From positions 1 to 48,508 of the IMG/VR virus record IMGVR_UViG_3300024429_000013: a DNA stretch of 48,508 nucleotides; one strand, 5' to 3'. The first letter of the stretch is position 1, and each line of letters begins with the position of its first letter. The notes beneath the pieces are model-generated. The model did no database searches and was not told the origin of the DNA. It worked only from the letters and a program-made list of their open reading frames with translations. This DNA is from a virus. Positions 1,048-47,019 of the stretch are shown one piece after another. Made by a program: the position numbers and the translations under genes.

Positions 1048-1080
1048 GTCTTGTAGCATTCTCATAATCTCCTTTTCCTT

Positions 1081-8187: not shown

Positions 8188-8205
8188 TTTATTCTCCTAT
8201 TCTAT

Positions 8206-8236
8206 AATTCGACATTCGGCATTCGACATTCGTAAT
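8206..8236 (-). repeat. Tandem-word repeat, TTCGACATTCGGC type
   Basis: Imperfect copies of a word like ACGAATGTCGAATGCCGAAT fill the gap between two tail genes, ending just before the ribosome binding site of the next gene. The word differs from the other families in this genome. Confidence 0.6.
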
Positions 8237-9129
8237 TACCTTTCCCCTCTCGTTCCAATCCCCGCTCTCGGTGCATAACGCTCATTTAATACCGCTATAA
8301 CGCCCAAAGCCTTCTTCTCCACGTCTGCGCTCCTGCTTGCCTTTTCATCCATCGACCAACAAGCACTCTCAGCCATTTCAAGTACCAATTCTATCAATGC
8401 CTCATTAAGATCGCACTCGATGCCAACTAAATTTATCAGGTCAAAAGAATGAGTTATAAAATACATCTCCTCTTCCTCTGCAAAATTGGCGGCGGCGGCG
8501 GGTTCAACGGTAAACATTAATTTTGTACCATCATAATCCGTTACAACGTGATAACTGCCCTTCGTTATGTTGTAAATCACTGCTCCGTTATAAGTGTCAT
8601 TAACGGCGCTCAATCCCTCGCCTTCCAAACCGTCAAACAACACATCTGACGCCCCATCATCCGCCTGATCAGACGTGAATTTATACCGCAGCGTACTCGG
8701 AATTTTCAGGAAATATACGTCGATCGCTGGATTCGTCTGCCCATTAGATACATATATGTGATTCTGAAATACCCATGCCAAAGGATTCTGCAAAGTGCCC
8801 GCAAGATAAGCATTCTCCGTTCTTTTCAGGTCGTCGAGATCAATCATATTGCAATACAATCCGTCTTTGATTCTGACTTTTAGGATACCCTCGGCGCCCT
8901 TCAAAACCCCATAATCGAGATTCGCAACAGTCATCTCAACTTTCCCTGCAGTCGCCGTTACATCCTCTTTAAGTACCTGCAACTCCGTCAAATAAGCATT
9001 ATGAAGAAAATTTGCAACCTTGAGCTGTGCATTATTTAAAGCGTCAAGTTTAAGAGCATCAGTAAATTTAACTTTATCGGCATCCTCAAGCCTTAAACCC
9101 AACTGCCCAATCATTGTCTGTACGTCCAT
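8236..9129 (-). CDS. Tail adaptor-like protein (gatekeeper)
   Basis: The 297-residue protein begins with a helical segment of the type MIGQLGLRLEDADKVKFTDALKLDALNNAQLKVANFLH, then a beta-rich middle, then a C-terminal helical region around ALIELVLEMAESACWSMDEKAS. This arrangement is seen in podovirus head-to-tail adaptor and tail tubular protein A families (T7 gp11/P22 gp4-like position). The gene at 14960-15958 has a similar plan, so the phage seems to encode two related adaptor-type proteins. A strong AAGGAG precedes the start. Assignment is by architecture and neighbourhood. Confidence 0.55.
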   Translation of the reverse strand: MDVQTMIGQLGLRLEDADKVKFTDALKLDALNNAQLKVANFLHNAYLTELQVLKEDVTATAGKVEMTVANLDYGVLKGAEGILKVRIKDGLYCNMIDLDDLKRTENAYLAGTLQNPLAWVFQNHIYVSNGQTNPAIDVYFLKIPSTLRYKFTSDQADDGASDVLFDGLEGEGLSAVNDTYNGAVIYNITKGSYHVVTDYDGTKLMFTVEPAAAANFAEEEEMYFITHSFDLINLVGIECDLNEALIELVLEMAESACWSMDEKASRSADVEKKALGVIAVLNERYAPRAGIGTRGER

Positions 9130-14959: not shown

Positions 14960-15958
14960 TTAAATCGCCCAATATTCTATCCGCTTCTCATCGTCCATCG
15001 GGTCCCAACTCTCCTCGATGTCAGAATCATGTAAAATGCTGTCGGTCGGCGCCATGGTCGAATGTATCTCCCCAATCCGCTCAAAATACTTCACCTTACA
15101 TTTATCCGCCAAATCGCCTTCGCCTATCGAATCGAGCCATAAAGAAACCGCTATCTCGATAATAACGTCCTGCAGACCCTCGCCCAATTCGCAGTCCACC
15201 GAATCCAACACCATGTCTACAGGGCGCCGGTACCCGTAAATATCGATTGTCTGGCTCGCATAAGGCTCAACGTAAATTTTACTCCCCCTGATATGATAAA
15301 TAGGTTTTGAAGTGCTTGGAGTTCTGTAAGCGTTCCTTATTTCCCTTATTTCATCAAGAGATTTCTTCGTGCAGAATTTACCATCCGTTAGCCGTATTTT
15401 ATCTATCCCGATATAAACCCCGAAAAGGGGCGGGGATAATGTCGTCAAATCAAAATGTCCGTCATCTGAATCGAGCGCCTGTTCCGTAAAATCGTTATCG
15501 AGCTCGTGCCGGAAATGCCTCCGAATGAGCGTTACAGCCCGCCTCTGTGCCTTATTTAAAAACAAAACCGCCTTCTGTGGCGTGAATGTTAAACCGTAAT
15601 CAAGATTCTCAAGAAACCGCTCCATCTTAATACGAACTAAATCTATCATCTCATCCAGCGTCATACCAACCGTAACAGGCGTTTTCGTCCCCGAAATCTC
15701 AAATTCAAGCTGTGTGGTAACCCCGCTGTATACCGATTCAATCCAATATTCATATGTCAAATCATAAGCAGGGTCTTCAAAGCTGTACTGATAAACACCA
15801 GTTGCAATCTTAACCATCGCCGTGCCGTCGGCAACTACATTAGCACCACCTTTTATCTTAACCCCAAAATTACCATCAGGGTCGGATAATACAAAACTCG
15901 TGGCATCCTTCAACACACCATCAATATAATGCCGCTTCGTTATAGTCGTTAAACTCAT
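14960..15958 (-). CDS. Phage adaptor-like structural protein, second copy
   Basis: The 332-residue protein has an N-terminal beta domain (about residues 1-95) resembling the BppU-like fold also suspected in the product of 16183-17064, followed by an adaptor-type helical/beta module. That module begins MTLDEMIDLVRIKMERFLEN and includes TPQKAVLFLNKAQRRAVTLIRRH, IYHIRGSKIYVEPYASQTI and LQDVIIEIAVSLWLDSIGE. This module is typical of the phage adaptor family that links portal to tail in podovirus-like genomes. It would be the better candidate for the true adaptor of the two; the fused N-terminal domain is unusual. Confidence 0.62.
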   Translation of the reverse strand: MSLTTITKRHYIDGVLKDATSFVLSDPDGNFGVKIKGGANVVADGTAMVKIATGVYQYSFEDPAYDLTYEYWIESVYSGVTTQLEFEISGTKTPVTVGMTLDEMIDLVRIKMERFLENLDYGLTFTPQKAVLFLNKAQRRAVTLIRRHFRHELDNDFTEQALDSDDGHFDLTTLSPPLFGVYIGIDKIRLTDGKFCTKKSLDEIREIRNAYRTPSTSKPIYHIRGSKIYVEPYASQTIDIYGYRRPVDMVLDSVDCELGEGLQDVIIEIAVSLWLDSIGEGDLADKCKVKYFERIGEIHSTMAPTDSILHDSDIEESWDPMDDEKRIEYWAI

Positions 15959-15967
15959 ATTTAATTA

Positions 15968-16006
15968 TCCATTTTTCAATTTGCAATTTTCATTTTTCAT
16001 TTTTCA
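15968..16006 (-). repeat. Tandem-word repeat, AATGAAAAATTGC type
   Basis: A run of imperfect AATGAAAAATGAAAATTGC-like words fills the gap between the 58-residue gene and the adaptor-like gene. A similar run lies at 19087-19126. Confidence 0.6.
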
Positions 16007-16183
16007 TTACCTTATCTGAACCCCCTCATCTTCAATCCGCACCTCAAAAGTCCCGCCCGGATCATAAGTACCGTCAAATTCATCATTGCCATATTTTTCG
16101 TCTTTTTTTACAACACTTTCATCAGGATAATCCGGAAAATCCCCATCCGTGCCGATAGCTATCAAACTTGTTGTTTCTGCCAT
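16007..16183 (-). CDS. Small acidic protein, 58 residues
   Basis: A short reading frame starting MAETTSLIAIGTDGDFPDYP and ending GTFEVRIEDEGVQIR. Its start overlaps the stop of the upstream gene as TAATG, the same coupling used by other genes here. The product is acidic with likely beta structure. A minor structural role is plausible from position; no family is recognised. Confidence 0.55.
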   Translation of the reverse strand: MAETTSLIAIGTDGDFPDYPDESVVKKDEKYGNDEFDGTYDPGGTFEVRIEDEGVQIR

Positions 16184-19086: not shown

Positions 19087-19126
19087 CCTTAATTTTTCAT
19101 TTTGCAATTTTCATTTTGCATTGTTA
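19087..19126 (-). repeat. Tandem-word repeat, AATGAAAATTGC type
   Basis: Second run of the AATGAAAATTGCAAAATG-like word, again at a gene junction directly upstream of a ribosome binding site. Confidence 0.6.
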
Positions 19127-19130
19127 TTTA

Positions 19131-19919: not shown

Positions 19920-19947
19920 AATATCATTTCCTCATAATTTGAGCACA

Positions 19948-19983
19948 GGGCTCCCGGGTGGTGTCTATGAAAACCGGAAGCCC
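19948..19983 (-). ncRNA. RNA hairpin in leader of the exported lectin-like gene
   Basis: Ten-base arms (GGGCTTCCGG and CCGGGAGCCC on the minus strand) flank a 16-base loop. On the minus strand every position pairs, one as G-U; on the plus strand the same position would be an A-C mismatch. This points to a structure in the leftward transcript. No U-run follows, so it is not a standard terminator. It could control processing or translation of the downstream gene. Confidence 0.5.
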
Positions 19984-19999
19984 CGCACAATTTGTTTGT

Positions 20000-20254: not shown

Positions 20255-20300
20255 GATATAATTCCTTTATTTTAAAAAGTGTTGTGAGGGCTTATTGAAA

Positions 20301-20316
20301 TCCCGAAATTTCGGGA
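20301..20316. repeat. Perfect 16-bp palindrome between capsid and downstream gene
   Basis: TCCCGAAATTTCGGGA is perfectly self-complementary and would form a hairpin in the transcript after the capsid stop codon. No U-run follows on either strand. It may protect or separate capsid mRNA; the same kind of palindrome is also a common host intergenic motif. Confidence 0.5.
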
Positions 20317-20347
20317 AATCTCAACCCCCACCTTAATTTCCTGTCAA

Positions 20348-20383
20348 TTATCCAATATCCAGAATCCAGTAACCAGTAACCAG
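20348..20383 (-). repeat. Tandem-word repeat, CTGGTTACTGGATTC type
   Basis: Imperfect CTGGTTACTGGATTCTGGAT-like words lie immediately downstream of the capsid gene stop codon, same family as 18541-18569 and 41823-41868. Confidence 0.62.
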
Positions 20384-20386: not shown

Positions 20387-21424
20387 CTATGCAGCAATAG
20401 GAGCCGCGTAAGTCTTTTTGGAATAAAGATTATCCTGCCTACACTGTGCCGCACGGTTCGATATTACCATCCCGCCGAATGCGTTGATCTTCATTACGGA
20501 TGCGTTGATATTGTATGCTTCCACGAATCCACCGGCTTTAAACACAGCCCGCGCATTGAAATAGAAGTACAAGAACTTGGTATTCAGGTAGTAAATTCTC
20601 GAATCCAAGTCGGTTTCCTGGTTATACGAAATATCCTCATCTGCAATGATTTTGCTGCCCCTGAACCGCAAATAATCAAAACCGAAATCTGCGTTATCAG
20701 TAACCAATTGCGAACCGCCTAACTTAGCGAATAACATCTGGTCGATCAGGTCGAACATATTTTGAGTAACGACTATCATATCCGGTTTGTGACCCATGTA
20801 ACCCGCTTTTGCTACTCCCTGCTGAAGTAATTTATATAGGTAAACATCACTGGTTGGGTCAGTCAATTTCGCGGGATCGCCGGGGCTATCCTCAAAACCA
20901 GCACCCGAAACATCGATGATTTGAGATTGCCACATCGTAGCGTCGCCCAAATCCGCCGGCGTAATTCCACCGCAAACTCCCGTACCGATTAATTCATCGA
21001 GTGCGAGCCATTCGTTTGTCCCTGCCGCACTCCTGCTAAATAGCCGGCGCGATGTTTTTATGTCAATCGAGTTTTTCAAATTGTTGACTTTTGAAATAAT
21101 GAGATCCATTACTTTGCCTGCGCCCATGTTCTCCAATTCTTCTTCGAGTGGTATAGCAAGCGGAATCGTCATCATTTTCGGAGTGTAATATGCCGCAGTT
21201 ATCGGGTCGGATTCGCCAATATTGAACGGCGCCATACGTGCAGTGAATTGCGCAAGGTCAGGGTCTCCCCACTCCAACAATACGTCCATCCGCTTCCCGC
21301 TCCAAATTTTCCTTTTCTTCATCAGAATCCTGAGTATCGGATGGTCACGGAAAACAATATTGTTAAGTACAGGAATAACATGCTCTTGCGTCAATGCGTT
21401 AATTGTATCTTTCGGTAAACTCAT
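20387..21424 (-). CDS. Major capsid protein
   Basis: The start is placed at the ATG for MSLPKDTINALTQEHVIPVL, which has GGAGAG upstream; a longer frame to 21466 would run through a hairpin. The 345-residue product has the order of secondary structure expected of HK97-fold coat proteins. It contains an N-terminal helical arm, GESDPITAAYYTPKMMTIPLAIPLEEELENMG in the E-loop/spine region, KNSIDIKTSRRLF, and a C-terminal stretch RAVFKAGGFVEAYNINASVMKINAFGG typical of the A-domain. It directly follows a scaffold-like gene, the standard head order. A structured RNA element lies in its leader. Confidence 0.82.
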   Translation of the reverse strand: MSLPKDTINALTQEHVIPVLNNIVFRDHPILRILMKKRKIWSGKRMDVLLEWGDPDLAQFTARMAPFNIGESDPITAAYYTPKMMTIPLAIPLEEELENMGAGKVMDLIISKVNNLKNSIDIKTSRRLFSRSAAGTNEWLALDELIGTGVCGGITPADLGDATMWQSQIIDVSGAGFEDSPGDPAKLTDPTSDVYLYKLLQQGVAKAGYMGHKPDMIVVTQNMFDLIDQMLFAKLGGSQLVTDNADFGFDYLRFRGSKIIADEDISYNQETDLDSRIYYLNTKFLYFYFNARAVFKAGGFVEAYNINASVMKINAFGGMVISNRAAQCRQDNLYSKKTYAAPIAA

Positions 21425-21450
21425 TGTACTCTCCATTTTAAAAGGGGCAT

Positions 21451-21498
21451 AAAAAAAGGGCGACATAGTGGTGAAGCTGGCACCAACTTTGCCGCCCT
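21451..21498 (-). ncRNA. Terminator-like RNA element A, capsid gene leader
   Basis: On the minus strand an outer stem AGGGCGGC/GTCGCCCT encloses, after one unpaired A, an inner stem AAGTTG/CAGCTT with loop GTGC and a nine-base 3' internal loop CACCACTAT; six or seven U follow. A homologous element lies at 28486-28533. Between the two, several stem positions change in a compensating way while the loop and internal-loop bases are kept. This marks a conserved RNA fold. It sits between the scaffold stop and the capsid start. Confidence 0.72.
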
Positions 21499-21565
21499 AA
21501 TTTTATCTTGCGCCGCCAATCGAGTGGCCCCCCGAATGACAGACCCCAGATTTTATTTTAGTTTG

Positions 21566-22459
21566 TTATTTGCCTATTTCTTCCTCTAATTTCTTGTATT
21601 CGGGGGTTGTTTTTATTGATTTCCCCAATTCTTCAATTGTTTCAGGCTTTTTTGCCTCTATTGTTGTAGCGCCTTTTTGCTTCGCAGGAACTGTCGTAAC
21701 CTCAACGGTGGACTTGGATTTCAGTTTCTCGATTTGCTTCTCCAACTTCGGAATCTTTTCCATAAGAGCGTAAGCTGTATCAAGAGTATACATCTCTCCG
21801 GTTTCCTCATTTTTCTTCAATGCCCAATCGTAAACCTTATCCCCTACATCTTGTTTGACGTTATGACGTTTACAAAAATCGCCCTTGTCCTTGATAAGAG
21901 CAAGTTCTTTGTCTTTTTGCTCGCCTTTGGTTTTCTCTGTCTCAAGTTCCTCTTTCAGAGGGTCCTCAAACTTGCCCTCCTCGAAAGCGAAAATAGTATC
22001 CACAATTTCCTTGCTTATGCCGAGTTCTTCAATAAAATATTCCTTGATTTCGGCATTATTCTCGCCCTTATCCTTCATCGTCTTAGCTAATTTGATGATA
22101 GGATCAAGAGATTTCCGCAAGGTGGACAATTCTTTCGTTTTCTCTCTCGTAGTTGAGATAAACGCATCAACGTCTTTGGAATCATCACGCCACTTCTTGA
22201 TTTGTTCTGCGGTAAACTTCTCCGCACCCTCAGCGTCAATCGCAAAAGTGGGCTCTTCTTCCTGTTCCTGCTCTTCTTTGGTCTTGCCTTCTTCTTCAGG
22301 TTTGACCTTTTCAGCATCAGATGAAATTTCCTCTTTCTTTTTTCCCGATAGTGCATCATCTAATATTTCCAAATCGGCTTCGGGGATTATAATCTCATCC
22401 ATGCTGCTCGGAGTTTCAGCCTGCGCTTTTTCGACCGTCTCCTGTGTTTCTTCAGCCAT
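21566..22459 (-). CDS. Scaffolding protein
   Basis: The 297-residue product is highly charged and helical. It has an acidic N-terminal half (KKKEEISSDAEKVKPEEEGK, EEQEQEEEPTF), long coiled-coil segments, and a basic/charged C-terminus (PEYKKLEEEIGK). Together with its place directly upstream of the capsid gene this is the typical profile of a capsid assembly scaffold. No protease motif is visible. AGGAA precedes the start and it follows the zinc-ribbon gene within a few bases. Confidence 0.75.
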   Translation of the reverse strand: MAEETQETVEKAQAETPSSMDEIIIPEADLEILDDALSGKKKEEISSDAEKVKPEEEGKTKEEQEQEEEPTFAIDAEGAEKFTAEQIKKWRDDSKDVDAFISTTREKTKELSTLRKSLDPIIKLAKTMKDKGENNAEIKEYFIEELGISKEIVDTIFAFEEGKFEDPLKEELETEKTKGEQKDKELALIKDKGDFCKRHNVKQDVGDKVYDWALKKNEETGEMYTLDTAYALMEKIPKLEKQIEKLKSKSTVEVTTVPAKQKGATTIEAKKPETIEELGKSIKTTPEYKKLEEEIGK

Positions 22460-22461
22460 GA

Positions 22462-22686
22462 TTATGTTCCTTTCTCAGTCGGTGTACTTGGGAAAGATGT
22501 AGTCGGTTTACTCGCTGGGTTAAAGTTATCCACAGCTTTCGACACTGCATTACTCTCCGGTTCTACACTGGATTGAGGTGCATGGTTATATGCTCCGTCC
22601 GGTAAATAGCCCGGACATCGTTTATTCGTACAATTTTCGCCCACATACGCCCCCCCGCAATGTGGACACATCCATACTTTAGCCAT
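22462..22686 (-). CDS. Small zinc-ribbon protein
   Basis: The 74-residue product starts MAKVWMCPHCGGAYVGENC with a second pair in NKRCPGY, giving a likely four-cysteine zinc ribbon (residues 7-24). A disordered P/S/T-rich tail follows. It overlaps the end of the upstream gene by a few bases and lies between portal and scaffold. A role in head assembly is possible but unproven. Confidence 0.62.
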   Translation of the reverse strand: MAKVWMCPHCGGAYVGENCTNKRCPGYLPDGAYNHAPQSSVEPESNAVSKAVDNFNPASKPTTSFPSTPTEKGT

Positions 22687-23110
22687 TTAGTCTTATAGTC
22701 CTATTATCCATTTCTTTATTAATCGTGTCTATGAGGCTCATTAAAAAACTATTATCAGCCTGCTTAACAAATTCCTTTACATCTGATGTGTCTACTTCAG
22801 GTAATCCTAAAATTGATTCCGTCAACCTGATTGCATCCAAAAATACCAAATGTTCATATTCTACACCTACTTGTGCAGTAATGGCGGTTAATTCGATATA
22901 TTTATTTGTATTGACAGGTATATCTTGCCATCTAATCTTTTTGAAAAATCCAAAACCCTTATTAATAATATCACCCAATAGATTATCCAATACTTTATGG
23001 GTTGTTGGATTCATTCTGAAAGAAGTCGGGTCTTTACCAGTTTCCCTAAGACAATCATTGCGTACTTTCTCAAAAGCACTCTTAAAATCTTGCAAATTTA
23101 ATTGTTCCAT
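22679..23110 (-). CDS. Unknown head-region protein, 143 residues
   Basis: Starts MEQLNLQDFKSAFEKVRNDC. Mostly helical with a PTTHKVLDNLLGDIINKGFGFFKKIRWQDIPV middle resembling the core of small phage proteins found near portals. No catalytic motif. Start and stop overlap neighbours (TAATG-type coupling upstream). Confidence 0.6.
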   Translation of the reverse strand: MEQLNLQDFKSAFEKVRNDCLRETGKDPTSFRMNPTTHKVLDNLLGDIINKGFGFFKKIRWQDIPVNTNKYIELTAITAQVGVEYEHLVFLDAIRLTESILGLPEVDTSDVKEFVKQADNSFLMSLIDTINKEMDNRTIRLNG

Positions 23111-23298
23111 TATTCCTCCACCAATTCATGTGTCTGTTCAAACATTTCCTTCGGGACAACAATTTCGCCACCGTCAAATTCTTTCTCAACATAATCCCCT
23201 GTTATGGCAAGAATTCTGCCGTATTTTGTCTCAATTGCCTTCGGAATCGTTACCTGATATGCCTCAACGATTATCGGCTTTTTGCGGTACTTCGGCAT
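23110..23298 (-). CDS. Small conserved phage protein, 62 residues
   Basis: Begins MPKYRKKPIIVEAYQVTIPK, a start shared by a widespread family of small phage proteins of unknown function (KYRKKPVVVEA-type). The product is a compact alpha/beta protein. Overlaps both neighbours with TAATG-like junctions, so its translation is coupled to the chain of small genes between portal and scaffold. Confidence 0.65.
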   Translation of the reverse strand: MPKYRKKPIIVEAYQVTIPKAIETKYGRILAITGDYVEKEFDGGEIVVPKEMFEQTHELVEE

Positions 23299-23468
23299 TA
23301 TACCCCCACCAATTCTTCGTCATCGGGCACTTCCCGATAAGAACCATTTTCCAAAATGTACAATTTGCCATCACGTTGCACATAATCTCCTTCTTGTATT
23401 TCCACAGGGTCGGGTACAATCGGAACTCCCGCAAATGATAAATTTTCAAAAAGCATATGATAAGCCAT
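23298..23468 (-). CDS. Small acidic protein, 56 residues
   Basis: A short frame (MAYHMLFENLSFAGVPIVPD...EELVGV) joined to its downstream neighbour by a TAATG overlap and to the upstream gene by the same device. The DGKLYILENGSYREVPDDEE part looks like a small beta-hairpin module. Function unknown. Confidence 0.58.
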   Translation of the reverse strand: MAYHMLFENLSFAGVPIVPDPVEIQEGDYVQRDGKLYILENGSYREVPDDEELVGV

Positions 23469-23611
23469 TATCCCGCCCTTTTCAATTTTTGATATTCGTA
23501 CATGACAAGAGCATGACTTATTGGCTTGCCTTTATTTATTGCTTTAGCTATCCGTTTCGCCTTCGCCCACAACTGCTCGTCATGTTTTGTGTGTACTGCA
23601 TTACGTGGCAT
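23468..23611 (-). CDS. Small basic protein, 47 residues
   Basis: A short frame (MPRNAVHTKHDEQLWAKAKR...YQKLKRAG) that begins in the stop of the portal gene (TAATG) and ends in the start of the next gene the same way. It is helical and basic; possibly nucleic-acid or capsid binding. Real status rests on tight coupling and protein-like composition. Confidence 0.55.
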   Translation of the reverse strand: MPRNAVHTKHDEQLWAKAKRIAKAINKGKPISHALVMYEYQKLKRAG

Positions 23612-25584
23612 TATTGCACTCCCGCCGTTATATCTTCCGGCATATCTAAAAATCTTTTTATCAGTCTAAATTTATACAAAAAAGGTAAATATTTAAATTC
23701 ATCATCGTTCAAAAACCCTTCAAATTCTATTAATAAATCACTCAGGTTTTTTTCATCAATACTGCCAATCCATTCATTTGCAACTCTTATTGAATAATCA
23801 TAAGATAGCTCATAATACCTTTCAAGCTGTTCTTCTAGGTCAATAAGCCCTTTTGTGTTTTCTTCCTTTACACTTTGTTTTGCTTTATCTGTTAATCTTT
23901 TGAGTTCTCCCCTTGCTTTATCCATTTTCTCTAAGTATGCTTTTATTTCAGCCATCCCCTGATTCTTATACCACGCATCAATGACCGCCTGCTTACGCTC
24001 CGGCGAAATATCTACATCGTCAACCGCAATCTCGATGCTGTAAAATCCTATATTCAAGAATTCGAGTGCCCGCTCCTCTGTTGCGATCCTGCCTCTTTTC
24101 CTTCCCGTGCCCGGAACAACCTTGACCTTGAATTTGCTCTTTTTAATATCCGCCGGATTGTACTTCTTAAATACCTGCTTGCCTTCCTCATCCCTGCTTT
24201 CGCCAACCGGCAGTTCAATCTCTTCCGTGTCGTATTCCTGAAAATACCATAATAACTGACGCCCAATTAGACCCAAATATTTCGATATGGGATTGTTGAT
24301 TTTATCTCGTACAACCTTATTTGCAGCCTCCTGAAGTGCTAAAATCGCCCTGCCCGATTCCGCCTGCTTATCCCGCTTCCCGACAGATACCTCCTGAATG
24401 CCAATCTCGTAATGGTGAACTTTTAACATAAGCTCTATAAACTGAAACGTCGACTGCGGGCAAGGTATTCCATGTTCAAAAGTTACGTCATCTACATGTT
24501 GAACCATGATTTTTTCTGCCGGCGTATGTCTTATTTTCCCTAATCCCCATTGTACCCAACTATACTTCACTTTAATAGGCGGATTGCCCATCTTCCGGAC
24601 GTTATCCGCTGTAGCGCTCAGTGTCTCGTCAAGTGATTTCTTGATTTTAGATACAATCTCAGGCTCGCCAACACCGAAAAAACTCCGCGCAGTGCCATTG
24701 TTCTTAATCATAAAATATGGAATTTTAGGTACGTACTCGCCTGGCTTAGGTGTATATCTATTCCAGAGAGGCTCATCTTTCAACAACACGCCATTTGCCC
24801 AGTGAACTTGACGACCACACGGGTATTTCTTCACATCCGCATCAATCCAGTAACACTCTTTGTACAAAGCCGAATTTGCCTGTTTATCATAATTATCATC
24901 TTCTTTGCTCATTTGCTTAAACGTGCCGTCATTATCTAATTTTCCCTCAGCCGGCACAGATATTCCGTCAGGATGGTCTTTCGATATTGTTATTCGCTTT
25001 ATTTCGTCAACATGCATCGGTGTAGCAAATATGATATTACGAGCGTCTTCGAGAGTCAAATCAGTAGCCCCCGGCGCCGGAAAACACGTGTGAACGTCAA
25101 CGTCTTTAATATCGAGCCCGTATAACTTACCATCTACAAGTTCTGGCAATATACATGTAATTCCGTTACTCATAATCAGCGATTGCTCCAGACAGTCAAG
25201 TGCTTTATACTCAAAATCAACGTCATCCAGAGCGTTATTAATTCGCAAATTTATAGCATCCGAATAATTATCGGACTTTTTGTCGACAGGAACTATGTTG
25301 ATTCTCGGAAAATAATCACCCGCAATCGCCATTTGCGTCCGGACATCCACGCGGGAGAGGCCAACCTTGATTTGTGTCCTCGCACTCGTCTCGCCCTTCA
25401 TTCTGTTTTCGTGTATCTCAAGATTCGTCCGCCAGCGTTGCGTTATACGTGCATCTCGATGCGTCCTATTCTCCTCGAACCACTCCTCAACCGTTGTCAG
25501 CGTCTGCTCATCCTCAACGGTCATTTTTTGGACATTCGCCTGCGCCTCTTCCTCCTGCTGCGCCTGTCTCTCTTCTTCGTTCAT
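23611..25584 (-). CDS. Portal protein
   Basis: The 657-residue product has the features of large podovirus portals. These include an acidic helical N-terminus, the block RTQIKVGLSRVDVRTQMAIAGDYFP, a middle region with TARSFFGVGEPEIVSKIKKSLDE, and a wing/stem segment SVGKRDKQAESGRAILALQEAANKVVRDK followed by a C-terminal coiled coil (about residues 575-625). It lies between terminase and scaffold genes as expected. In the virion it forms the dodecameric DNA channel and docks the terminase and adaptor. Confidence 0.82.
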   Translation of the reverse strand: MNEEERQAQQEEEAQANVQKMTVEDEQTLTTVEEWFEENRTHRDARITQRWRTNLEIHENRMKGETSARTQIKVGLSRVDVRTQMAIAGDYFPRINIVPVDKKSDNYSDAINLRINNALDDVDFEYKALDCLEQSLIMSNGITCILPELVDGKLYGLDIKDVDVHTCFPAPGATDLTLEDARNIIFATPMHVDEIKRITISKDHPDGISVPAEGKLDNDGTFKQMSKEDDNYDKQANSALYKECYWIDADVKKYPCGRQVHWANGVLLKDEPLWNRYTPKPGEYVPKIPYFMIKNNGTARSFFGVGEPEIVSKIKKSLDETLSATADNVRKMGNPPIKVKYSWVQWGLGKIRHTPAEKIMVQHVDDVTFEHGIPCPQSTFQFIELMLKVHHYEIGIQEVSVGKRDKQAESGRAILALQEAANKVVRDKINNPISKYLGLIGRQLLWYFQEYDTEEIELPVGESRDEEGKQVFKKYNPADIKKSKFKVKVVPGTGRKRGRIATEERALEFLNIGFYSIEIAVDDVDISPERKQAVIDAWYKNQGMAEIKAYLEKMDKARGELKRLTDKAKQSVKEENTKGLIDLEEQLERYYELSYDYSIRVANEWIGSIDEKNLSDLLIEFEGFLNDDEFKYLPFLYKFRLIKRFLDMPEDITAGVQ

Positions 25585-25961
25585 GCCTTATAAACCTCTG
25601 TTGTAACATACATATCATTTTCAAGAAAAAAATACTCCAAAGCATACCACATGAAAAATTCACTTATTTCACTCTTAGGACTTGAACTATGAAATCTAAA
25701 ATCCCATTTTGAAACATTACCGTTTGGACGTTTATAGGAAAAAATAATTATTACAAGCCTATTCTTGACTCTGCTTTGTCTCTCTTCCTCAGTCATTTGT
25801 AACTCAACTTTAGATGAATTCTTGCTCATTTCTTCAATCTTTTCTCCACAAGCAGGGCAGAAAACCCAACGACTTATGACAAATTCACCGCAATGAACAC
25901 AATAACCATTTGCTTTTCCAAGTTCATTCTCTTTGCTCGGTTTGGTTTTATAACTCCTCAT
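25581..25961 (-). CDS. Zinc-ribbon protein, unknown function
   Basis: The 126-residue product has two cysteine pairs, YCVHCGEF and FCPACGEK (about residues 21-42), forming a treble-clef or ribbon-type zinc site. A charged linker and a C-terminal domain with SKWDFRFHSSSPKSEISEFFMWYALEYFF follow. It overlaps the portal start by four bases. Placement between terminase and portal suggests a packaging accessory role, but this is only context. Confidence 0.6.
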   Translation of the reverse strand: MRSYKTKPSKENELGKANGYCVHCGEFVISRWVFCPACGEKIEEMSKNSSKVELQMTEEERQSRVKNRLVIIIFSYKRPNGNVSKWDFRFHSSSPKSEISEFFMWYALEYFFLENDMYVTTEVYKA

Positions 25962-25974
25962 GTCCCCGCTTCAT

Positions 25975-26136
25975 TCATTTGTGAATTGTTCTCCAATAAC
26001 TTTCGCCGTATGACATATCGTACTCAAGTTCTTGATGTTTATTACATGGATAATAATTACATCTTCTATACATTCCATTTGATGAATAACGCCATTGATG
26101 TCCTATACCAATCCAACAAAGAAGTTTACGTATCAT
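25975..26136 (-). CDS. DUF1660-like small cysteine protein
   Basis: A 53-residue frame beginning MIRKLLCWIGIGHQWRYSSNG with a following RRCNYYPCNKHQE. The arrangement LLC-x-GHxW...C...C..H resembles the small DUF1660 prophage family (KLLCKLFGHKW...CKRCG), probably metal-binding. It is shorter than most predicted genes but ends a short chain of small genes after the terminase. Function unknown. Confidence 0.58.
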   Translation of the reverse strand: MIRKLLCWIGIGHQWRYSSNGMYRRCNYYPCNKHQELEYDMSYGESYWRTIHK

Positions 26137-26139
26137 TAT

Positions 26140-26310
26140 TTACCTACAGTGATGGCATTTACTACAAGGATTTGCCATGTCAAAACTTCCATTAAGCTTC
26201 ATTATTGCTTTCAGAGCGTAATCAGGGTCTGTTAATTGCTCTTTTGAAAGCTCTGATTTTTGCACAAATCGAGGTTTTTCAATAGTTTGCTTTTGGCTAT
26301 GAGTTTTCAT
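26140..26310 (-). CDS. Small protein with C-terminal cysteine/histidine cluster
   Basis: The start is placed at MKTHSQKQTIEKP because that ATG overlaps the terminase stop as ATGA; the longer frame begins inside the terminase gene. The 56-residue product ends NPCSKCHHCR, a likely metal-binding tail. Function unknown. Confidence 0.58.
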   Translation of the reverse strand: MKTHSQKQTIEKPRFVQKSELSKEQLTDPDYALKAIMKLNGSFDMANPCSKCHHCR

Positions 26311-27701
26311 GTTCCCGTCTCCCAATTTTCCATTTCCACGTCCTCCGTGATTTCCTCCTCGAATAGCGTCTGCGGACACTTCTCAGGCTCTGGTAATCGT
26401 GTTTTAAATATATGAGCTGCTCCGTACCGCGCCGAATCCCCTGTATCGTCTCTCGGCATTTTCTCAACATCTTCTGGATTTCGCTCAGAATGAATCAAAT
26501 ACGCAAGGTCTTTATACACCCAATCAATGTGTTTAAATATCTTCAGTCGTGGTTCAAATACTCTACCCTTAGTCGGATCATCATTCCACTCAATCAAGTG
26601 CATAAGTGCTTGCCAACCCGGGACACGCTCCGTATTCGCCAAACTGCAATACAAGCCATTTGCGGCAGCCTCATCCATCATATTGTACTCAGGTGGCACT
26701 TCCTCTGTCTTAATCCGGGTTCTCATATCATGCCCCACCAACGTCATCACGATATTTTCGTCACGTGGGGTCATTGCAACGATGTTCCGAGCCATTTGAC
26801 CAACCGTATATTCAGATTCCCTATAAGCCCGATAAATATACGCATTACCTCTGAAATCCAATGCCCACCACAAACACACCGTAGGATGATTGTAGCCCCA
26901 ATCTAACGACCTAAATCGCAACCAACTCGGGTCCAGCCCACAAGGATCAATCACATGCTTATCGTAACGCAATTTCTTGAAGTATCGACCGGCAAATATA
27001 TACCAATCGCCGTCGAGGTAAGCTTTTCGAAGGTATTCAGGAAGGTCTTGCAAATTCCGCAGATATTGAGGATTAGCATTTAAGAAAAGCGGATTGTCCC
27101 ATATTTTAGCTTGTATGAAGTGAAAATCTTCCGGTGTTTCATTTGGATTAAAATTTCTCTCAATAAACCGACGCATAACCCATTCATGTCCAATGCCTCC
27201 AGGATTGCCTGTCAACAAAAACTTTGGCTTAAATCCAAGATTTTTAACTGAAATTTTTGGGTCTATCCGAAGTGAAGTCTTTAAAATTGTAAAAACTTCT
27301 TCTTCGTGTTGTGTCGCCTCATCCAACGACATATCATCATATTCAAGCCCTTGAAATCCATACACATCTTTTGTACTGTCTAAATGCTTGAAAAAGGTTA
27401 TACTTCCATTTGGGTATTTTATGAGTTTGTCACCCGCTCGATACCAGGGAACTATGAAAGGAAACTCGGTAAGCATTTTTTGAATGTGATTTGCATACAA
27501 CTCGGGGTGAGTTCTGCGGATAATAACGCCATCAGTACCTGCATAACGCATTCGCCGAATTATTTCCCTTGTCCGAACCAAATATGACTTACCACCGCCC
27601 TTAGCGCCACCGTACAAGGTATAAAGTGCATCCCCATGCTCTAAAGACTGAAACGCCTCAAACTGCTTAGGCTGAAAATTGATGTCAACGTTTATCGCCA
27701 T
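26307..27701 (-). CDS. Terminase large subunit
   Basis: The start chosen is MAINVDINFQPKQFEAFQSL, overlapping the small subunit stop by 17 bases. The 464-residue protein has a Walker A motif GGAKGGGKS (residues 31-39) and a Walker B region DDMSLDEATQ (about 122-131, with D127-E128). It also has a C-terminal RNase H-like nuclease with SLDWGYNHPTVCLWW and GHDMRTR. This is the motor that cuts and pumps DNA into the procapsid. A longer frame from 27743 lies within the small subunit and is rejected. Confidence 0.9.
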   Translation of the reverse strand: MAINVDINFQPKQFEAFQSLEHGDALYTLYGGAKGGGKSYLVRTREIIRRMRYAGTDGVIIRRTHPELYANHIQKMLTEFPFIVPWYRAGDKLIKYPNGSITFFKHLDSTKDVYGFQGLEYDDMSLDEATQHEEEVFTILKTSLRIDPKISVKNLGFKPKFLLTGNPGGIGHEWVMRRFIERNFNPNETPEDFHFIQAKIWDNPLFLNANPQYLRNLQDLPEYLRKAYLDGDWYIFAGRYFKKLRYDKHVIDPCGLDPSWLRFRSLDWGYNHPTVCLWWALDFRGNAYIYRAYRESEYTVGQMARNIVAMTPRDENIVMTLVGHDMRTRIKTEEVPPEYNMMDEAAANGLYCSLANTERVPGWQALMHLIEWNDDPTKGRVFEPRLKIFKHIDWVYKDLAYLIHSERNPEDVEKMPRDDTGDSARYGAAHIFKTRLPEPEKCPQTLFEEEITEDVEMENWETGT

Positions 27702-28233
27702 CAGATTTACCAGTATCAGGATTATGTACAACCGGCTCAACATTAATTAGCCTCACGTTTAAATTGATATTGCTATCGCCTTCAAATTGGTGTTTTTCTA
27801 CAACTAAACCCAAATGTTTGCAAAGTATTTCAAGAACACCCTTCTTATCTGCAAATTTAATGTCCGTTACTTCCTCATAATCACCATCTTCATTTTTCTT
27901 TGTAGTAAATTTTACACCAGATATTGCTGCAGCAGTTCTTTCGTCTATATCCTGCATATTTTTAAAACTGCCAACTTCGTTGAATATCTGCCTTATATCA
28001 GCAAAAGCTAAATTCGATATTTGTTCTAAAACAGCCTTCTTATTAACTCCTATTTCCGTAAGATGTTGCTCTATTCTCTTCTCAATTTCAACTTTTATTT
28101 CAACATCCTTCAACAACCGTTGACCACTTGAATAGGCTGTTTTTTCGCTATATCCTGCCTGTTTTGCTGCTTTTGTCGCATTAAATCCGCCAGCAATATA
28201 TGAATCGATAAATATTTTTTGCTTAGTAGTCAT
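27685..28233 (-). CDS. Terminase small subunit
   Basis: The 182-residue protein starts MTTKQKIFIDSYIAGGFNATKAAKQAGYSEKTAYSSGQRLL, the helix-turn-helix hallmark of the Terminase_2 family of small subunits that bind the packaging site. A central oligomerisation region (EQISNLAFADIRQIFNEVGS) follows. It precedes and overlaps the large subunit gene. Confidence 0.85.
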   Translation of the reverse strand: MTTKQKIFIDSYIAGGFNATKAAKQAGYSEKTAYSSGQRLLKDVEIKVEIEKRIEQHLTEIGVNKKAVLEQISNLAFADIRQIFNEVGSFKNMQDIDERTAAAISGVKFTTKKNEDGDYEEVTDIKFADKKGVLEILCKHLGLVVEKHQFEGDSNINLNVRLINVEPVVHNPDTGKSDGDKR

Positions 28234-28466
28234 TACGTTCCATCACCCCAATTAATTTCAGCCCCACCACCTTTGTCGTCTTTGTCTGATTTATTTAAGT
28301 TTTCTATAGCAATATCAGACATTCCGCCACCTTTCTCACCACCATAAATCATTGGTGATAATATCTGCCGAAGTGACTGACTTCGCAAGCCAAACCGATA
28401 AATCAACGCTCCCACAACCATTGAGCTCAGCACGACCCCAACATGATACAAAGCGTCATAAATCAT
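28233..28466 (-). CDS. Small membrane protein before terminase
   Basis: The start is placed at MIYDALYHVGVVLSSMVVGA, which has GGAGA upstream; the longer frame would pass through RNA element B. The 77-residue product has one transmembrane helix near the N-terminus (about residues 8-25) and a charged tail ending NWGDGT. Its position as first gene of the packaging operon is unusual for a membrane protein; a holin-like or entry-exclusion role can be imagined but not shown. Confidence 0.6.
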   Translation of the reverse strand: MIYDALYHVGVVLSSMVVGALIYRFGLRSQSLRQILSPMIYGGEKGGGMSDIAIENLNKSDKDDKGGGAEINWGDGT

Positions 28467-28485
28467 CGAAAATCTCCATTTAAGC

Positions 28486-28533
28486 AAAAAAAAAGACAGC
28501 AATCTGATGAAACTGGCACCAGCTTTGCCGTCT
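28486..28533 (-). ncRNA. Terminator-like RNA element B, late operon leader
   Basis: Homologue of the element at 21451-21498. Minus-strand outer stem AGACGGC/GCTGTCT, an unpaired A, inner stem AAGCTG/CAGTTT with loop GTGC, nine-base internal loop CATCAGATT, then eight U. It lies about 45 bases after a predicted start site and upstream of the first packaging gene, the place where lambda-type phages carry a terminator controlled by late antitermination. Whether it stops or regulates transcription is inferred. Confidence 0.72.
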
Positions 28534-28548
28534 AAAATTTTAAAACCG

Positions 28549-28562
28549 CTCAATTATGAGCT
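28549..28562 (-). other. Small hairpin at the late transcript 5' end
   Basis: GCTCATAATTGAGC is a five-base-pair hairpin with a four-base loop lying just after the predicted start site of the promoter at 28581-28609 and before element B. It would be one of the first structures in the RNA. Confidence 0.4.
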
Positions 28563-28580: not shown

Positions 28581-28609
28581 AAAATATCCTACAAAAATGA
28601 GAATGTCAA
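28581..28609 (-). promoter_or_regulatory. Predicted sigma70-type late promoter
   Basis: Minus strand reads TTGACA, a 17-base spacer, then TATTTT, with an AT-rich flank. It would drive the leader with element B and the packaging, head and tail genes. It lies downstream of the DnaA-like gene stop, in a true intergenic gap. Confidence 0.6.
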
Positions 28610-28621: not shown

Positions 28622-28981
28622 TTACTTTTCCACATAAATATAATTCACGTTCAATCCATGTTGATTAATCTGTAAACTATTTATCAAAAAACATACATCC
28701 GCCTTCAATTTTTCATTATACTTCATTTCCCACTCAATTCCCCGAACAGCACTCATAACAGTCGAATGATGCCGATCGCCGAACTCTTTACCGATTTTCT
28801 TATAACTGAGCTTATTCCCGCCATTTTCAATCAATTTTCGACAAAGATACATTGCAACATGCCGCGGTCCCGTAAACTCTATTAACCTTGAAGCACATTT
28901 CAGATAATATATAAAATCATAATCATCAACGCTATAATACTCGGCAACCTGCTTTTGCACCATTGCGATTGTTAACATCAT
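28622..28981 (-). CDS. Stand-alone DnaA domain IV protein
   Basis: The 119-residue product aligns by eye with the C-terminal DNA-binding domain of DnaA: TIAMVQKQVAEYYSV (4-18), GPRHVAMYLCRKL (38-50), SYKKIGKEFGDRHHSTVMSAVRGIE (59-83). There is no AAA+ ATPase, so it cannot be a full initiator. The signature is GDRHHSTV where DnaA normally has G-G-R-D-H-T-T-V; the Asp that helps read the DnaA box is His here (residue 71). It overlaps the upstream alpha-CTD-like gene by ATGA and sits near the iteron origin. It may bind phage sites or compete with host DnaA. Confidence 0.85.
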   Translation of the reverse strand: MMLTIAMVQKQVAEYYSVDDYDFIYYLKCASRLIEFTGPRHVAMYLCRKLIENGGNKLSYKKIGKEFGDRHHSTVMSAVRGIEWEMKYNEKLKADVCFLINSLQINQHGLNVNYIYVEK

Positions 28982-29355
28982 TCATCCTTAAGACTTAAGT
29001 TAAATAATTTTAAAGATTCTTGGATTTGTCTTATTTTTTTCCTACCTATGCCTTTATATTGCCTTAATTCCTCTGGTGTGTTATTAATTAAATCCTTAAT
29101 AGTTTCTATATCTTTGATAGCGAAAATATTAAACAAATCTTCAGATAAGTATAATTGTCCTACTCCGCCTTCCATAAATTCAACATCTGGTTCATCAAGC
29201 TTATATTCTCCACACCATTGATAATGATGTTTCGTAATTATTTTCGGATACCTACAACATTCTCCTTCTGTAAATTTTTCTTCTGTGTCTTCGTTAATAT
29301 AAAAAGCATTCAAAAAATAGTAACAAGTTCCACATTCTTTTTTAATCATTTTCAC
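28978..29355 (-). CDS. Cysteine cluster fused to RNA polymerase alpha-CTD-like domain
   Basis: The 125-residue protein has two parts. Residues 8-50 carry a cysteine set (CGTC at 8-11, CC at 33-34, WCGE at 47-50) of the small metal-binding CxxC...C..P...WCGE type. Residues 66-125 resemble the RNA polymerase alpha C-terminal domain: LYLSEDLFNIFAIKDIETIKDL, then TPEELRQYKGIGRKKIRQIQESLKLFNLSL. Against E. coli alpha, N76, G104 and K106 match N268, G296 and K298, but the DNA-contact Arg265 is Asp73. A generic helix-hairpin-helix domain is the alternative. It overlaps both neighbours (ATGA), tying it to replication genes. It could recruit RNA polymerase or bind DNA near the origin. Confidence 0.78.
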   Translation of the reverse strand: MKMIKKECGTCYYFLNAFYINEDTEEKFTEGECCRYPKIITKHHYQWCGEYKLDEPDVEFMEGGVGQLYLSEDLFNIFAIKDIETIKDLINNTPEELRQYKGIGRKKIRQIQESLKLFNLSLKDE

Positions 29356-30248
29356 TCCCTCCGCTTATAATTAATCCCGGCAGCCTCTTCTTCCGCTGTC
29401 GGTCTCAAAAGATACGGCACACCGTTTTTATTGAACACCCCAGCCATAAAAAAATGAACCGGTTTAGGAAGTTTTGTCTTTTTCGTTTTCTCCATCATCC
29501 GCCGAACCGCGATATACATAACGTGGATCCAGGGACGTTGTAAACTACTACACTGTTGCGACCGAACACTTTCGTTAGATTCAAAAATAGTTTTCAGATG
29601 ACTTGCGTCTAATTTTTCTTCGAACAACAATTCAAACTTGTCCGCAAAACTCTGAATTTCTTTTGGCGATGTTGTTAAATAATCTTCCCCCGTAACGATG
29701 TTTTTTAGGACGTTATCTAACCAGTTTTTTGAAGAGCGATCTTTTAAATTAGCCAAGTCTTTTTTGTCATTCTTCTCCTCGCGTGCGCGTGCGGTGTGGT
29801 TATTAACTAAGGCCTTATTTGGCTTTTTTATTTTAGTTTCTTTTCTTTTAAATTGGTCGTGAATGGTTCGTGAATCATTCGTGATTGGTTCGTGATTGGT
29901 TCGTGAATGGTTCGTGAATGGTTCAGGAATAGTTGAGGGACATTTATGGGGAACTTTTTGGTGTTTATCCCAATTTTTCAGCATTATAAATCTATTATTA
30001 TCAATACTTTTGTACCATATTATAAAACCTTTTTTATGTAGAACATCTAAGTCGTTTTCAATCATTCTTTTTGAAATCTTATCGGCGGGAAATATTTTAC
30101 TTTTCACAACAACTGGTTCACCTTCGAGCTTGCCAAAATCGTCTGCGTTAGAGAAAAGGCCTATGAAAAGGAGACGCTGACGCAAATTTAGGCTATAAAA
30201 TTTCCTTTTGTCCCAAATTTGCGGAGAAATCATTCGCTTTCTTGCCAT
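29352..30248 (-). CDS. Replication initiator with internal iterons
   Basis: The 298-residue product starts MARKRMISPQIWDKRKFYSLNLRQRLLFIGLFSNADDFGK, the winged-helix opening of phage replication organisers. ISKRMIENDLDVLHKKGFIIWY follows to complete the wing. Residues about 105-130 (PEPFTNHSRTNHEPITNDSR) are encoded by the DNA iterons, as in lambda O, where the origin lies inside the gene. The C-terminal part (WIHVMYIAVRRMMEKTKK) may contact the helicase loader. No helicase or primase is recognisable in the genome, so the phage probably recruits host DnaB. Confidence 0.78.
   Translation of the reverse strand: MARKRMISPQIWDKRKFYSLNLRQRLLFIGLFSNADDFGKLEGEPVVVKSKIFPADKISKRMIENDLDVLHKKGFIIWYKSIDNNRFIMLKNWDKHQKVPHKCPSTIPEPFTNHSRTNHEPITNDSRTIHDQFKRKETKIKKPNKALVNNHTARAREEKNDKKDLANLKDRSSKNWLDNVLKNIVTGEDYLTTSPKEIQSFADKFELLFEEKLDASHLKTIFESNESVRSQQCSSLQRPWIHVMYIAVRRMMEKTKKTKLPKPVHFFMAGVFNKNGVPYLLRPTAEEEAAGINYKRRE
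29855..29940 (-). repeat. Iteron cluster inside replication gene (candidate origin)
   Basis: Seven to eight copies of an 11-bp unit, consensus on the plus strand GGTTCGTGAAT, run head to tail (clean units start at 29865, 29876, 29887, 29898, 29909, 29920). The period of 11 is not a multiple of three although the DNA is coding, so the repeat is kept for DNA binding rather than for the protein. It equals about one helical turn. Confidence 0.82.
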
Positions 30249-30263: not shown

Positions 30264-30296
30264 TTTTCGTGAATCATTCGTGAATCATTCGTGAAA
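30264..30296 (-). repeat. Second iteron cluster, upstream of replication gene
   Basis: Three further copies of the same 11-bp unit (TTTTCGTGAAT, CATTCGTGAAT, CATTCGTGAAA on the plus strand) lie in the 5' leader of the initiator gene. They could autoregulate it or form part of the origin with the internal cluster about 330 bases away. Confidence 0.78.
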
Positions 30297-31444: not shown

Positions 31445-31598
31445 TTTTCCGGTACCGTTCCTTAATCATAAAAGCCTTGCGCAACGCCCGCTCATACATA
31501 TACGGCGGGTTATCCCCTTCGAGCCATAGTAAGGCGTCCACCAAACTCTCATGTCGCTTAGATTCAATCCCAGCGAGCCTCAATAATCGTTTAATCAT
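31434..31598 (-). CDS. Small helical protein, 54 residues
   Basis: A short frame (MIKRLLRLAGIESKRHESLVDALLWLEGD...KERYRKNET). Its start overlaps the stop of the DUF5131 gene as ATGA. Helical and basic. Unknown function. Confidence 0.6.
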   Translation of the reverse strand: MIKRLLRLAGIESKRHESLVDALLWLEGDNPPYMYERALRKAFMIKERYRKNET

Positions 31599-32365
31599 AT
31601 CGGAAACTCCCGATATTGCAGTTCCGGCGGGAATTTACTAATATCATGTTCAACCTTACCGTTAATACTCACCTGCTTAACAAATACAGGGATATTAAAC
31701 TGTTTACAAACATTGACTATTATTTCAAATCCTCTTAATCCATATTCGCATTCTCGCCGTTTCGGTCCCGATTCGCAACCAATAATAACCCAGTCAATAT
31801 TTTGTAATAGAAAGTATATTTGTCTTGTAATAAAAGGTTTTAGCAATGGCTCAAAGCTCACAAAACGCACTGTTGCGGGAATTTGTAATAGCGTCTCTAT
31901 GCGGTGCAGATATTCCGGCGATTCAACGGAGACACCAAGCCATACATGAGGCATTGCACCACTTACGAAAGCATTCCCCAAAGTATCTTCAGATGTTATA
32001 TATTTTTTCATGTGCTCTGGTTGTTTTGTTAAAATCTGAAAGATATGTTTTTCATAACAATAAAACATAGCTTGAACAACTGAATCAATATCCCCAAATA
32101 ATACATTCTTATCGAACATATCCCCCATTGAATCAATAAATATCCGTTTATCCTTGCCTTGTGCGAATTGTTTTAACCGCTCCAGAAAGAACTGTATTAC
32201 ATTAAACGGCTTTGCATATTGCGGACAATTCTGCAATTTACCTTCTAAATACGCTTTATGTCGTTTTTTATGTAATTTCCTTGCAAAACAGTATGAACAT
32301 CCTTTTGTACAACCCACAAATGGATTAACCGTTTTGTCTGTCCAGGGTATTTTTGTCATAATCAT
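31595..32365 (-). CDS. DUF5131 (phage Gp37/Gp68) radical-SAM-like protein
   Basis: The 256-residue product matches the phage Gp37/Gp68 (DUF5131) family: IPWTDKTVNPFVGCTKGCSYCFA with a CX3CX2C iron-sulfur type motif, then RIFIDSMGDMFDKNV, IFQILTKQPEHMKKYI, WLGVSVESPEYLHRI and VRFVSFEPLLKPF. The family is related to spore photoproduct lyase-type radical SAM proteins and its reaction is not firmly known to me. The chosen ATG overlaps the upstream stop as ATGA; another ATG two codons later is also possible. Confidence 0.8.
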   Translation of the reverse strand: MIMTKIPWTDKTVNPFVGCTKGCSYCFARKLHKKRHKAYLEGKLQNCPQYAKPFNVIQFFLERLKQFAQGKDKRIFIDSMGDMFDKNVLFGDIDSVVQAMFYCYEKHIFQILTKQPEHMKKYITSEDTLGNAFVSGAMPHVWLGVSVESPEYLHRIETLLQIPATVRFVSFEPLLKPFITRQIYFLLQNIDWVIIGCESGPKRRECEYGLRGFEIIVNVCKQFNIPVFVKQVSINGKVEHDISKFPPELQYREFPI

Positions 32366-32874
32366 CCCGCCTCTTTCCGCAGTTTCCCGAAATGTTTGTA
32401 ACAGTAAGTTAAGTGCACCAGCACGTAACATTCCACTACATACCGGTTGCCCCAAAAAACGTGAATATGATAATGAATACTGCAACTCTTAAAGAAATTC
32501 CAGATGTCCATTTTCGTCAATTTCTTTCCACCTTCTTTTGTCTCTATTGCATTACTCGGAATCCTGAACGGATCAACCTCGACAACCAATCCTGCCCAAA
32601 GGTACTTACTCATAGCTTCGAGCTTCGGGATAGTCTTTTCCTGTCGCTCTGCGCCGACATAAGCCCAAAAATCACTACATTTGCGTTCAATCGTAATAGA
32701 ATCTTCGTAACCGACAATACTATAATCCCCATGCTTCAAACACTTGCGGACTATAACCAAGTCATCCGGCGGATTACAAAATAGCCCACCGGATTGCTCC
32801 CTCGTATCTTTCACAAATTCGCACCCTGCCGGAATTGGATACCGCTTCCATTTTTCAAGCTCATACAAACTCAA
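32362..32874 (-). CDS. ERCC4-type nuclease
   Basis: The 170-residue product has the ERCC4/XPF nuclease motif set: VKDTREQ (21-27), HGDYSI (48-53) and TIERKCSDFW (61-70), giving the GD...ERKxxxD pattern with catalytic D50, E63, R64, K65 and D68. Such small phage nucleases may resolve branched DNA in recombination or degrade host DNA. It sits between a methyltransferase and the radical-SAM-like gene, with stop/start overlaps on both sides. Confidence 0.83.
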   Translation of the reverse strand: MSLYELEKWKRYPIPAGCEFVKDTREQSGGLFCNPPDDLVIVRKCLKHGDYSIVGYEDSITIERKCSDFWAYVGAERQEKTIPKLEAMSKYLWAGLVVEVDPFRIPSNAIETKEGGKKLTKMDIWNFFKSCSIHYHIHVFWGNRYVVECYVLVHLTYCYKHFGKLRKEAG

Positions 32875-39805: not shown

Positions 39806-39825
39806 AATTTTTCCTTATCCAGAAT

Positions 39826-39870
39826 CAAGTATCCAGAATCTTTATGCATTTTATGCCCTCTGCGGTTAAA
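39826..39870 (-). repeat. Two word-repeat families at one junction (includes copy 6)
   Basis: A CTGGATACTTGATTCTGGAT-type word (39826-39841) and a short AACCGCAGAGGG word (39856-39869) lie back to back between the basic protein gene and the nuclease gene, next to the latter's stop codon. Confidence 0.6.
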
Positions 39871-41843: not shown

Positions 41844-41868
41844 CAAGCATCCAGCATCCAGCAACCAA
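41823..41868 (-). repeat. Tandem-word repeat, CTGGATGCTTGATGCTGG type
   Basis: The longest run of this word family in the genome: alternating CTGGATG and CTTGATG units over about 45 bases, between two small early genes. Confidence 0.75.
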
Positions 41869-46986: not shown

Positions 46987-47019
46987 AATAAAAAAGCCCC
47001 GGCGCTGCAACCAGGGCTT
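46985..47019 (-). terminator. Rho-independent terminator, end of late transcript
   Basis: Minus strand AAGCCCTGG, loop of eight, CCGGGGCTT, then a T-rich run. It would stop leftward transcription that has passed round the join, at the border with the rightward cassette. Confidence 0.82.

Follow-up and report, generated by a model that had tools for sequence, protein, structure and literature searches.

Matched terminator-type hairpins with a candidate built-in antiterminator before the late genes and the capsid gene of a temperate phage

Why would a strong transcription terminator stand directly before the capsid gene of a phage? The question is raised by IMG/VR virus record IMGVR_UViG_3300024429_000013, a stretch of 48,508 nucleotides (nt) that is called the window here. 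Two related hairpins on its minus strand, E1 and E2, precede the first late gene and the capsid gene, respectively. The favoured answer, to which a probability of roughly 0.42 is given, is that E1 and E2 may be conditional intrinsic terminators (attenuators), each with a built-in antiterminator, that gate the late genes and would be opened together by a factor acting in trans.

Terminator-type hairpins E1 and E2

The first-pass annotation had reported two homologous elements on the minus strand, and both are present at the positions given for them, with a common core and a fold that exceed what shuffled sequences yield. Each element is a single hairpin of 40 nt that ends in a U-run. The two share a 25-nt core, GGCAAAGYTGGTGCCAGYTTCAYCA, which occurs exactly twice and is expected zero times (100 shuffles, even when three mismatches are allowed). 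Both also fold better than their shuffled counterparts, with z scores of -2.4 and -5.4 for the two elements. The features on which the argument turns are the following, where SD denotes the Shine-Dalgarno sequence:

28486..28533, minus strand: E1, terminator hairpin with a run of nine U (fold, shuffles, terminator scan, shared core)
21451..21498, minus strand: E2, terminator hairpin with a run of seven U (fold, shuffles, terminator scan, shared core)
46996..47019, minus strand: control site, a plain intrinsic terminator that closes the late operon and lacks the shared core
28233..28466, minus strand: 77-amino-acid open reading frame directly 3' of E1, then terS; SD GGAG at 28477-28474
27685..28233, minus strand: terminase small subunit gene, terS (Terminase_2, 3.5e-33)
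20387..21424, minus strand: major capsid gene (phrog_9953, 4.9e-22); SD GGAG at 21434-21431

Both elements have the GC-rich hairpin abutting a U-run that characterizes intrinsic terminators. When both strands of the whole genome were scanned for terminator score, with 12 whole-genome shuffles as the null, only three strong sites were returned: the control at 47017 (44.4), E1 (29.3) and E2 (27.7). The next-best real site scored 0.4 and the maximum among the 12 shuffled genomes was 22.1. In the minimum-energy fold of E1 and E2, UGGUG pairs with CAYCA, and the conserved nine-nt 3' internal loop described in the first-pass annotation is therefore largely paired.

The position of E2 before the capsid gene is confirmed, with its U-run 16 nt from the GGAG and 26 nt from the ATG. 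For E1, which precedes the first late gene, the corresponding distances are 8 and 19 nt. A promoter does not fit between either element and its gene, so the downstream genes are reached by obligatory read-through. E1 had been described as a promoter-proximal leader; a promoter-like match does lie upstream, at a level not above chance, but E1 is also placed 8 nt before the SD of the frame that starts at 28466. Two further candidates were dropped. Open frames span E1 and the 3' arm of E2 and have no visible SD, and a -10-like TAAAAT found right before both hairpins is common in a genome of 39% GC and has no -35 partner.

Covariation and an alternative hairpin

Conservation was assessed against L004, a 9.9-kb relative with a capsid protein that is 80% identical and a large terminase subunit (TerL) that is 83-85% identical. 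The same scan finds a single strong terminator site in L004 (26.4), located before its capsid gene. The structure, the U-run and the pre-capsid position are retained there, with the loops changed and the stems compensated. In the resulting sample of three copies from two phages (E1, E2 and L004), three of the eight outer-stem pairs are changed on both sides and none is broken, so the compensatory changes first noticed between E1 and E2 are real. Between E2 and L004 identity is limited to 11 of the 26 inner positions and the flanks and outer strands are nearly unchanged, which indicates that the structure was kept and the inner sequence replaced. The inner stem proposed earlier, AGYUG/GUGC/CAGYU, is unbroken in the three copies (15/15 cells) but lies 5-7.5 kcal/mol above the minimum-energy fold. 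An inner pairing comparable to that of UGGUG with CAYCA exists in L004, within 0.5 kcal/mol of the best fold there.

A second structure, hairpin C, was first seen by folding growing transcripts of E1 and E2, in which the 5' strand of the terminator pairs early with a nearer strand. The strands concerned are:

28510..28533, minus strand: hairpin C of E1, antiterminator candidate, AGACGGCA/AAGCUGG/UGCC-a-GUUU, which excludes the terminator
28494..28501, minus strand: distal 3' strand of the E1 terminator (UGCUGUCU), which competes with hairpin C
21474..21497, minus strand: hairpin C of E2, antiterminator candidate, GGGCGGCA/AAGUUGG/UGCC-a-GCUU
21458..21465, minus strand: distal 3' strand of the E2 terminator (UGUCGCCC)
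L004: hairpin C, GGGCGACA/CGGCUGGA/UGUC-ca-GUCC

Across the three copies the 5' strand pairs with the near strand in 24 of 24 cells (8/8 in each), and with the far strand likewise in 24 of 24. Sliding the near strand leaves 7-13 of 24 cells paired, and hairpin C is the only 8/8 placement within each element. Three of the varying positions carry A in the 5' strand, and there the near and far partners are both U; a G to A change in L004 is matched in both. The GYUGG loop motif recurs in all three versions of hairpin C, as does a bulged A ahead of the second half-stem. The 25-nt core of E1 and E2 corresponds to hairpin C together with the strand that displaces it. The hallmark of an attenuator, two mutually exclusive helices that use one strand and are kept in relatives, is therefore present, with nulls of 0.002-0.09. 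Judged by its layout, hairpin C together with the terminator is a predicted antiterminator/terminator pair.

In the proposed mechanism, each RNA would by default take the long hairpin with its U7-U9 tail, which is favoured by energy over hairpin C, and polymerase would halt before the first late gene and before the capsid gene. During transcription the 5' strand would meet its nearer complement first (UGYC, a bulged A and GYYY), giving the shorter hairpin C with its GYUGG loop, which is incompatible with the terminator. At a late stage of lytic growth, hairpin C would be held by a factor, probably a phage protein able to recognise the shared hairpin; polymerase would then pass both sites, and the terminase and capsid genes would open together. 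The analysis demonstrates the terminator-type sequences, their placement with no space for a promoter behind them, the covariation and the alternative pairing in three copies. Termination in the host, the stabilization of hairpin C, its agent and the timing are what we infer here. That the shared core comprises hairpin C and its displacing strand is consistent with a single factor that acts on both elements; the terminator at 47017 lacks this core. As the phage is temperate, its late genes need a gate.

Among the options raised in the first-pass annotation, regulated terminators are thus the best supported: the elements are strong by sequence and must be passed, their core is absent from the 47017 site, and an alternative pairing exists. 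No antiterminator protein was found among those scanned, and several observations weigh against the attenuator interpretation. The statistics for hairpin C are modest, and its probability of arising by chance depends on the null: interior shuffling gives about 0.002 if the geometry is fixed, the value rises to 0.05 if the geometry is left free, and it reaches 0.09 (L004) if all columns that are the same as in E2 are kept constant. Compared with the terminator, hairpin C is less stable by 11-15 kcal/mol (-5.4 versus -16.8 kcal/mol in E1 and -7.3 versus -21.3 kcal/mol in E2) and hence needs a stabilizer. No stabilizer was found, and no CAT or ANTAR domain is present in the scanned proteins (some small open reading frames were outside the scan, and a host protein is possible). 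In the growing L004 transcript, hairpin C is slightly less stable than a local hairpin, GGCUGG/AUGU/CCAGUC, and the case for this copy is weaker for it. Finally, there are just three copies from two phages, L004 carries part of the core only, and its contig begins inside terL, so the counterpart of E1 is missing.

The rival that deserves most attention holds that E1 and E2 are ordinary intrinsic terminators passed by a general mechanism, either a processive antiterminator of the lambda Q or N type loaded elsewhere or leakiness that sets a low level of expression. Hairpin C would then be incidental, and the elements would share a core as the result of a recent duplication of one terminator into the second position. 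This explanation, which is possible though unlikely, suits the location of E1, which like lambda tR' stands at the boundary between early and late genes, right after a promoter-like sequence, and the free replacement of the L004 interior while stem and U-run are preserved; the hairpin C null of 0.09 also speaks for it. It leaves the complete near-strand pairing unexplained, as well as the sharing of the inner part beyond the stem. Searches of the scanned proteins against Pfam, PHROGs and NCBIfam gave no match to a Q- or N-like antiterminator, though such proteins diverge fast and could escape detection.

Leader RNAs, homologues and known systems

Comparison with L004 reveals that the conserved RNA around E2 exceeds the hairpin itself and includes the upstream hairpin P1, an A-tract that faces the U-run, and a closing helix:

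21444..21547, minus strand: E2 leader RNA, a three-way junction closed by GGGGU (21547-21543) and GCCCC (21448-21444), kept in L004
21513..21542, minus strand: P1 hairpin of the E2 leader, with three pairs changed on both sides and pairing kept

The junction contains 36 pairs, of which four are changed on both sides and none is broken. When the alignment was folded and compared with column-shuffled alignments, z was -8.7 for the whole leader, -6.9 for P1 alone and -8.1 for the E2 part alone. Two further intercistronic hairpins, at 20263-20330 and 19932-19990 on the minus strand, precede the structural genes 20254 and 19919 and are kept in L004; the second has no U-run.

Next in line among the rivals, and rather improbable, is a role as mRNA leader elements. 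The hairpin and U-rich stretch before the SD would serve RNase III-type processing or stabilization of the 5' end, aiding ribosomes and raising terminase and capsid output in the manner of T7 gene 10. The hairpins do lie directly before SD and ATG at both sites and in L004, the two additional conserved hairpins before the next structural genes can be read in the same way, and a capsid gene requires more expression, not less. Against this, a U7-U9 run abutting a GC-rich stem with a preceding A-tract is the design of a terminator and occurs at three genome sites, one of them an operon end, and in the folded E1 and E2 leaders the SD is partly paired and not exposed. T7 has structured RNA both in the gene 10 leader, directly ahead of the major capsid SD, and at intergenic RNase III sites. 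Structured RNA likewise lies directly before the capsid SD here, but U7-U9 abut the stem and an alternative fold exists.

Lambda, also temperate, offers a parallel in position: its PR' is followed, where early genes give way to late ones, by the terminator tR', which is passed by Q antitermination. E1 similarly follows a promoter-like sequence at the early/late border, one not above chance for the region. The window differs in having a second matched terminator before the capsid gene, an alternative antiterminator fold and no Q homologue found.

In the ribonucleic antiterminators (RATs) of the BglG/SacY/LicT family, a leader hairpin shares sequence with the 5' strand of an intrinsic terminator, and formation of either fold precludes the other (PMC3369936, PMC9981650); two asymmetric internal loops interrupt the RAT stem (PMC3369936). 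Hairpin C of E1 and E2 overlaps the terminator 5' strand in the same mutually exclusive way. RATs control sugar operons through CAT-domain proteins, whereas E1 and E2 belong to a phage late operon, and hairpin C has a GYUGG loop and a single bulged A, not two internal loops. Membership of the RAT family was rejected, given the single bulge in the stem and the lack of a CAT protein among those scanned. By analogy, E1 and E2 may work like RAT-type attenuators at the position of lambda tR'.

The earlier suggestion of a put-like site, an antitermination RNA that acts in cis, modifying polymerase and suppressing the terminators downstream, is highly improbable. As with HK022 putL and putR, there are two related, antitermination-linked RNA elements per phage (PMC9378689), here near the starts of transcription units, and the P1 and E2 hairpins stand side by side in the E2 leader. 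However, put is about 70 nt long, consists of two long stem-loops that form a V and act on polymerase, and is not itself a terminator (PMC9378689). E1 and E2 are each one 40-nt hairpin ending in a U-run and are themselves predicted terminators, so they were not assigned to put, and the sole other strong terminator downstream is the operon end. That the likeness is due to chance, or to recent duplication of a neutral sequence, is scarcely credible: only one relative is available for comparison, but none of the 100 shuffles yields the core twice, pairs are compensated both within the phage and relative to L004, and alignment folding gives z of about -8.

Homologues were sought in several collections. 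E1 and E2 match no family among the Rfam covariance models. In IMG/VR, the core DNA pattern gave one match, L001, which lies within a coding gene and is near the chance rate by estimate, and the leader pattern gave only the L004 contig. Terminase, capsid and portal searches of IMG/VR and GTDB genomes returned L004 as the sole close relative. A capsid tblastn search of phages and plasmids found little, the TerS search gave nothing closer than a 37% relative, and distant DNA searches of phages with both leaders produced chance-level matches only. The covariance model, an approach already proposed in the first-pass annotation, scores strongly on E1, E2 and the pre-capsid site of L004, where the stems are compensated, but on nothing convincing beyond these. 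A weak match, L005, was rejected as a plain hairpin with a U-run, and no such hairpin precedes the capsid gene in the distant capsid relatives L005 and L006. With a single further homologue, in a relative with 80% capsid identity, and more distant phages that are without the element, the new phage RNA class envisaged at first cannot be claimed; the elements are promising, but three copies do not make an established RNA class.

Genome context and meaning

The two ends of the record (1-134 and 48375-48508) share an overlap of 134 bases at 97%, which makes the window in effect a complete circular genome. It encodes the markers of a temperate tailed phage: an integrase, a recombination directionality factor, a Cro/C1-type helix-turn-helix (HTH) protein, small and large terminase subunits, a portal and a capsid. 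Nearly all genes lie on the minus strand, in the order early, terminase, portal, scaffold, capsid and tail, and then round to the terminator at 47017. Other features of the region upstream of E1 and of the intergenic gaps are:

28581..28609, minus strand: sigma-70-like promoter candidate upstream of E1, TTGACA-17-TATTTT (10/12 consensus matches)
28548..28561, minus strand: small P1-like hairpin upstream of E1, GCUCA-UAAU-UGAGC (predicted fold)
28978-29355, minus strand: positional candidate for the late regulator, which combines an N-terminus rich in Cys (CGTC...ECC...WCGEY) with a domain resembling the C-terminal domain of RNA polymerase alpha
Window 960-1130, 8180-8245, 15950-16010, 19090-19130, 20340-20383, 39811-39843 and 41653-41865: gaps with 7-mer-type repeats
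L004 8254-8295 and 9611-9662: gaps with 7-mer-type repeats

Sigma-70-like matches are common near E1 (36 found, 34.7 expected), and the promoter candidate is weak alone and not above chance. The product of 28978-29355 matches Pfam RNA_pol_A_CTD (7e-7) and NCBIfam rpoA (1.5e-8) and gave no relative in the phage collection. Its gene sits two genes ahead of E1, which makes the product, a putative transcription regulator, a candidate positional lead to the late factor. A stand-alone protein resembling the C-terminal HTH of DnaA is encoded at 28622-28981 (minus strand), between the replication genes and E1. Family searches with the 77-amino-acid frame 3' of E1 gave no match.

Low-complexity repeats of the 7-mer type (GAATTAGGAATTACGA, GGATTCTGGATACTGG, AAATGAAAATTGC, AACCGCAGAGACGC) occupy intergenic gaps in this phage and in L004, several of them right before start codons. 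Tandem 11-bp repeats, TCGTGAATSRT, at 29857-29924 and 30266-30295, lie partly within the replication initiator gene (29352-30248) and partly a short way upstream of it, and are probably origin iterons, comparable to those of lambda O. A DUF5131-family protein is encoded in the early region at 31595-32485 (minus strand). The TerL gene of L004 contains an in-frame TAG at positions 201-203; the corresponding residue in the window is Trp, and the TAG is either a sequencing error or the sign of a broken gene.

What is known of late-gene control in tailed phages comes mainly from Q or N antitermination, new sigma factors or phage polymerases. No description of a terminator directly before a capsid gene was found in the literature (most subscription journals were outside the coverage). 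A wider proposal, advanced with considerable doubt, is a family of phage-borne attenuators in which a single RNA-binding factor of the phage would simultaneously open matched terminator/antiterminator switches in several late units, one of them directly before the capsid gene; in each phage the core would co-evolve with its factor, in the way that boxB and N do. If real, such paired attenuators with their built-in antiterminator would be a further way to coordinate late units, and would explain why a strong terminator stands where it is least expected, right before the capsid gene.

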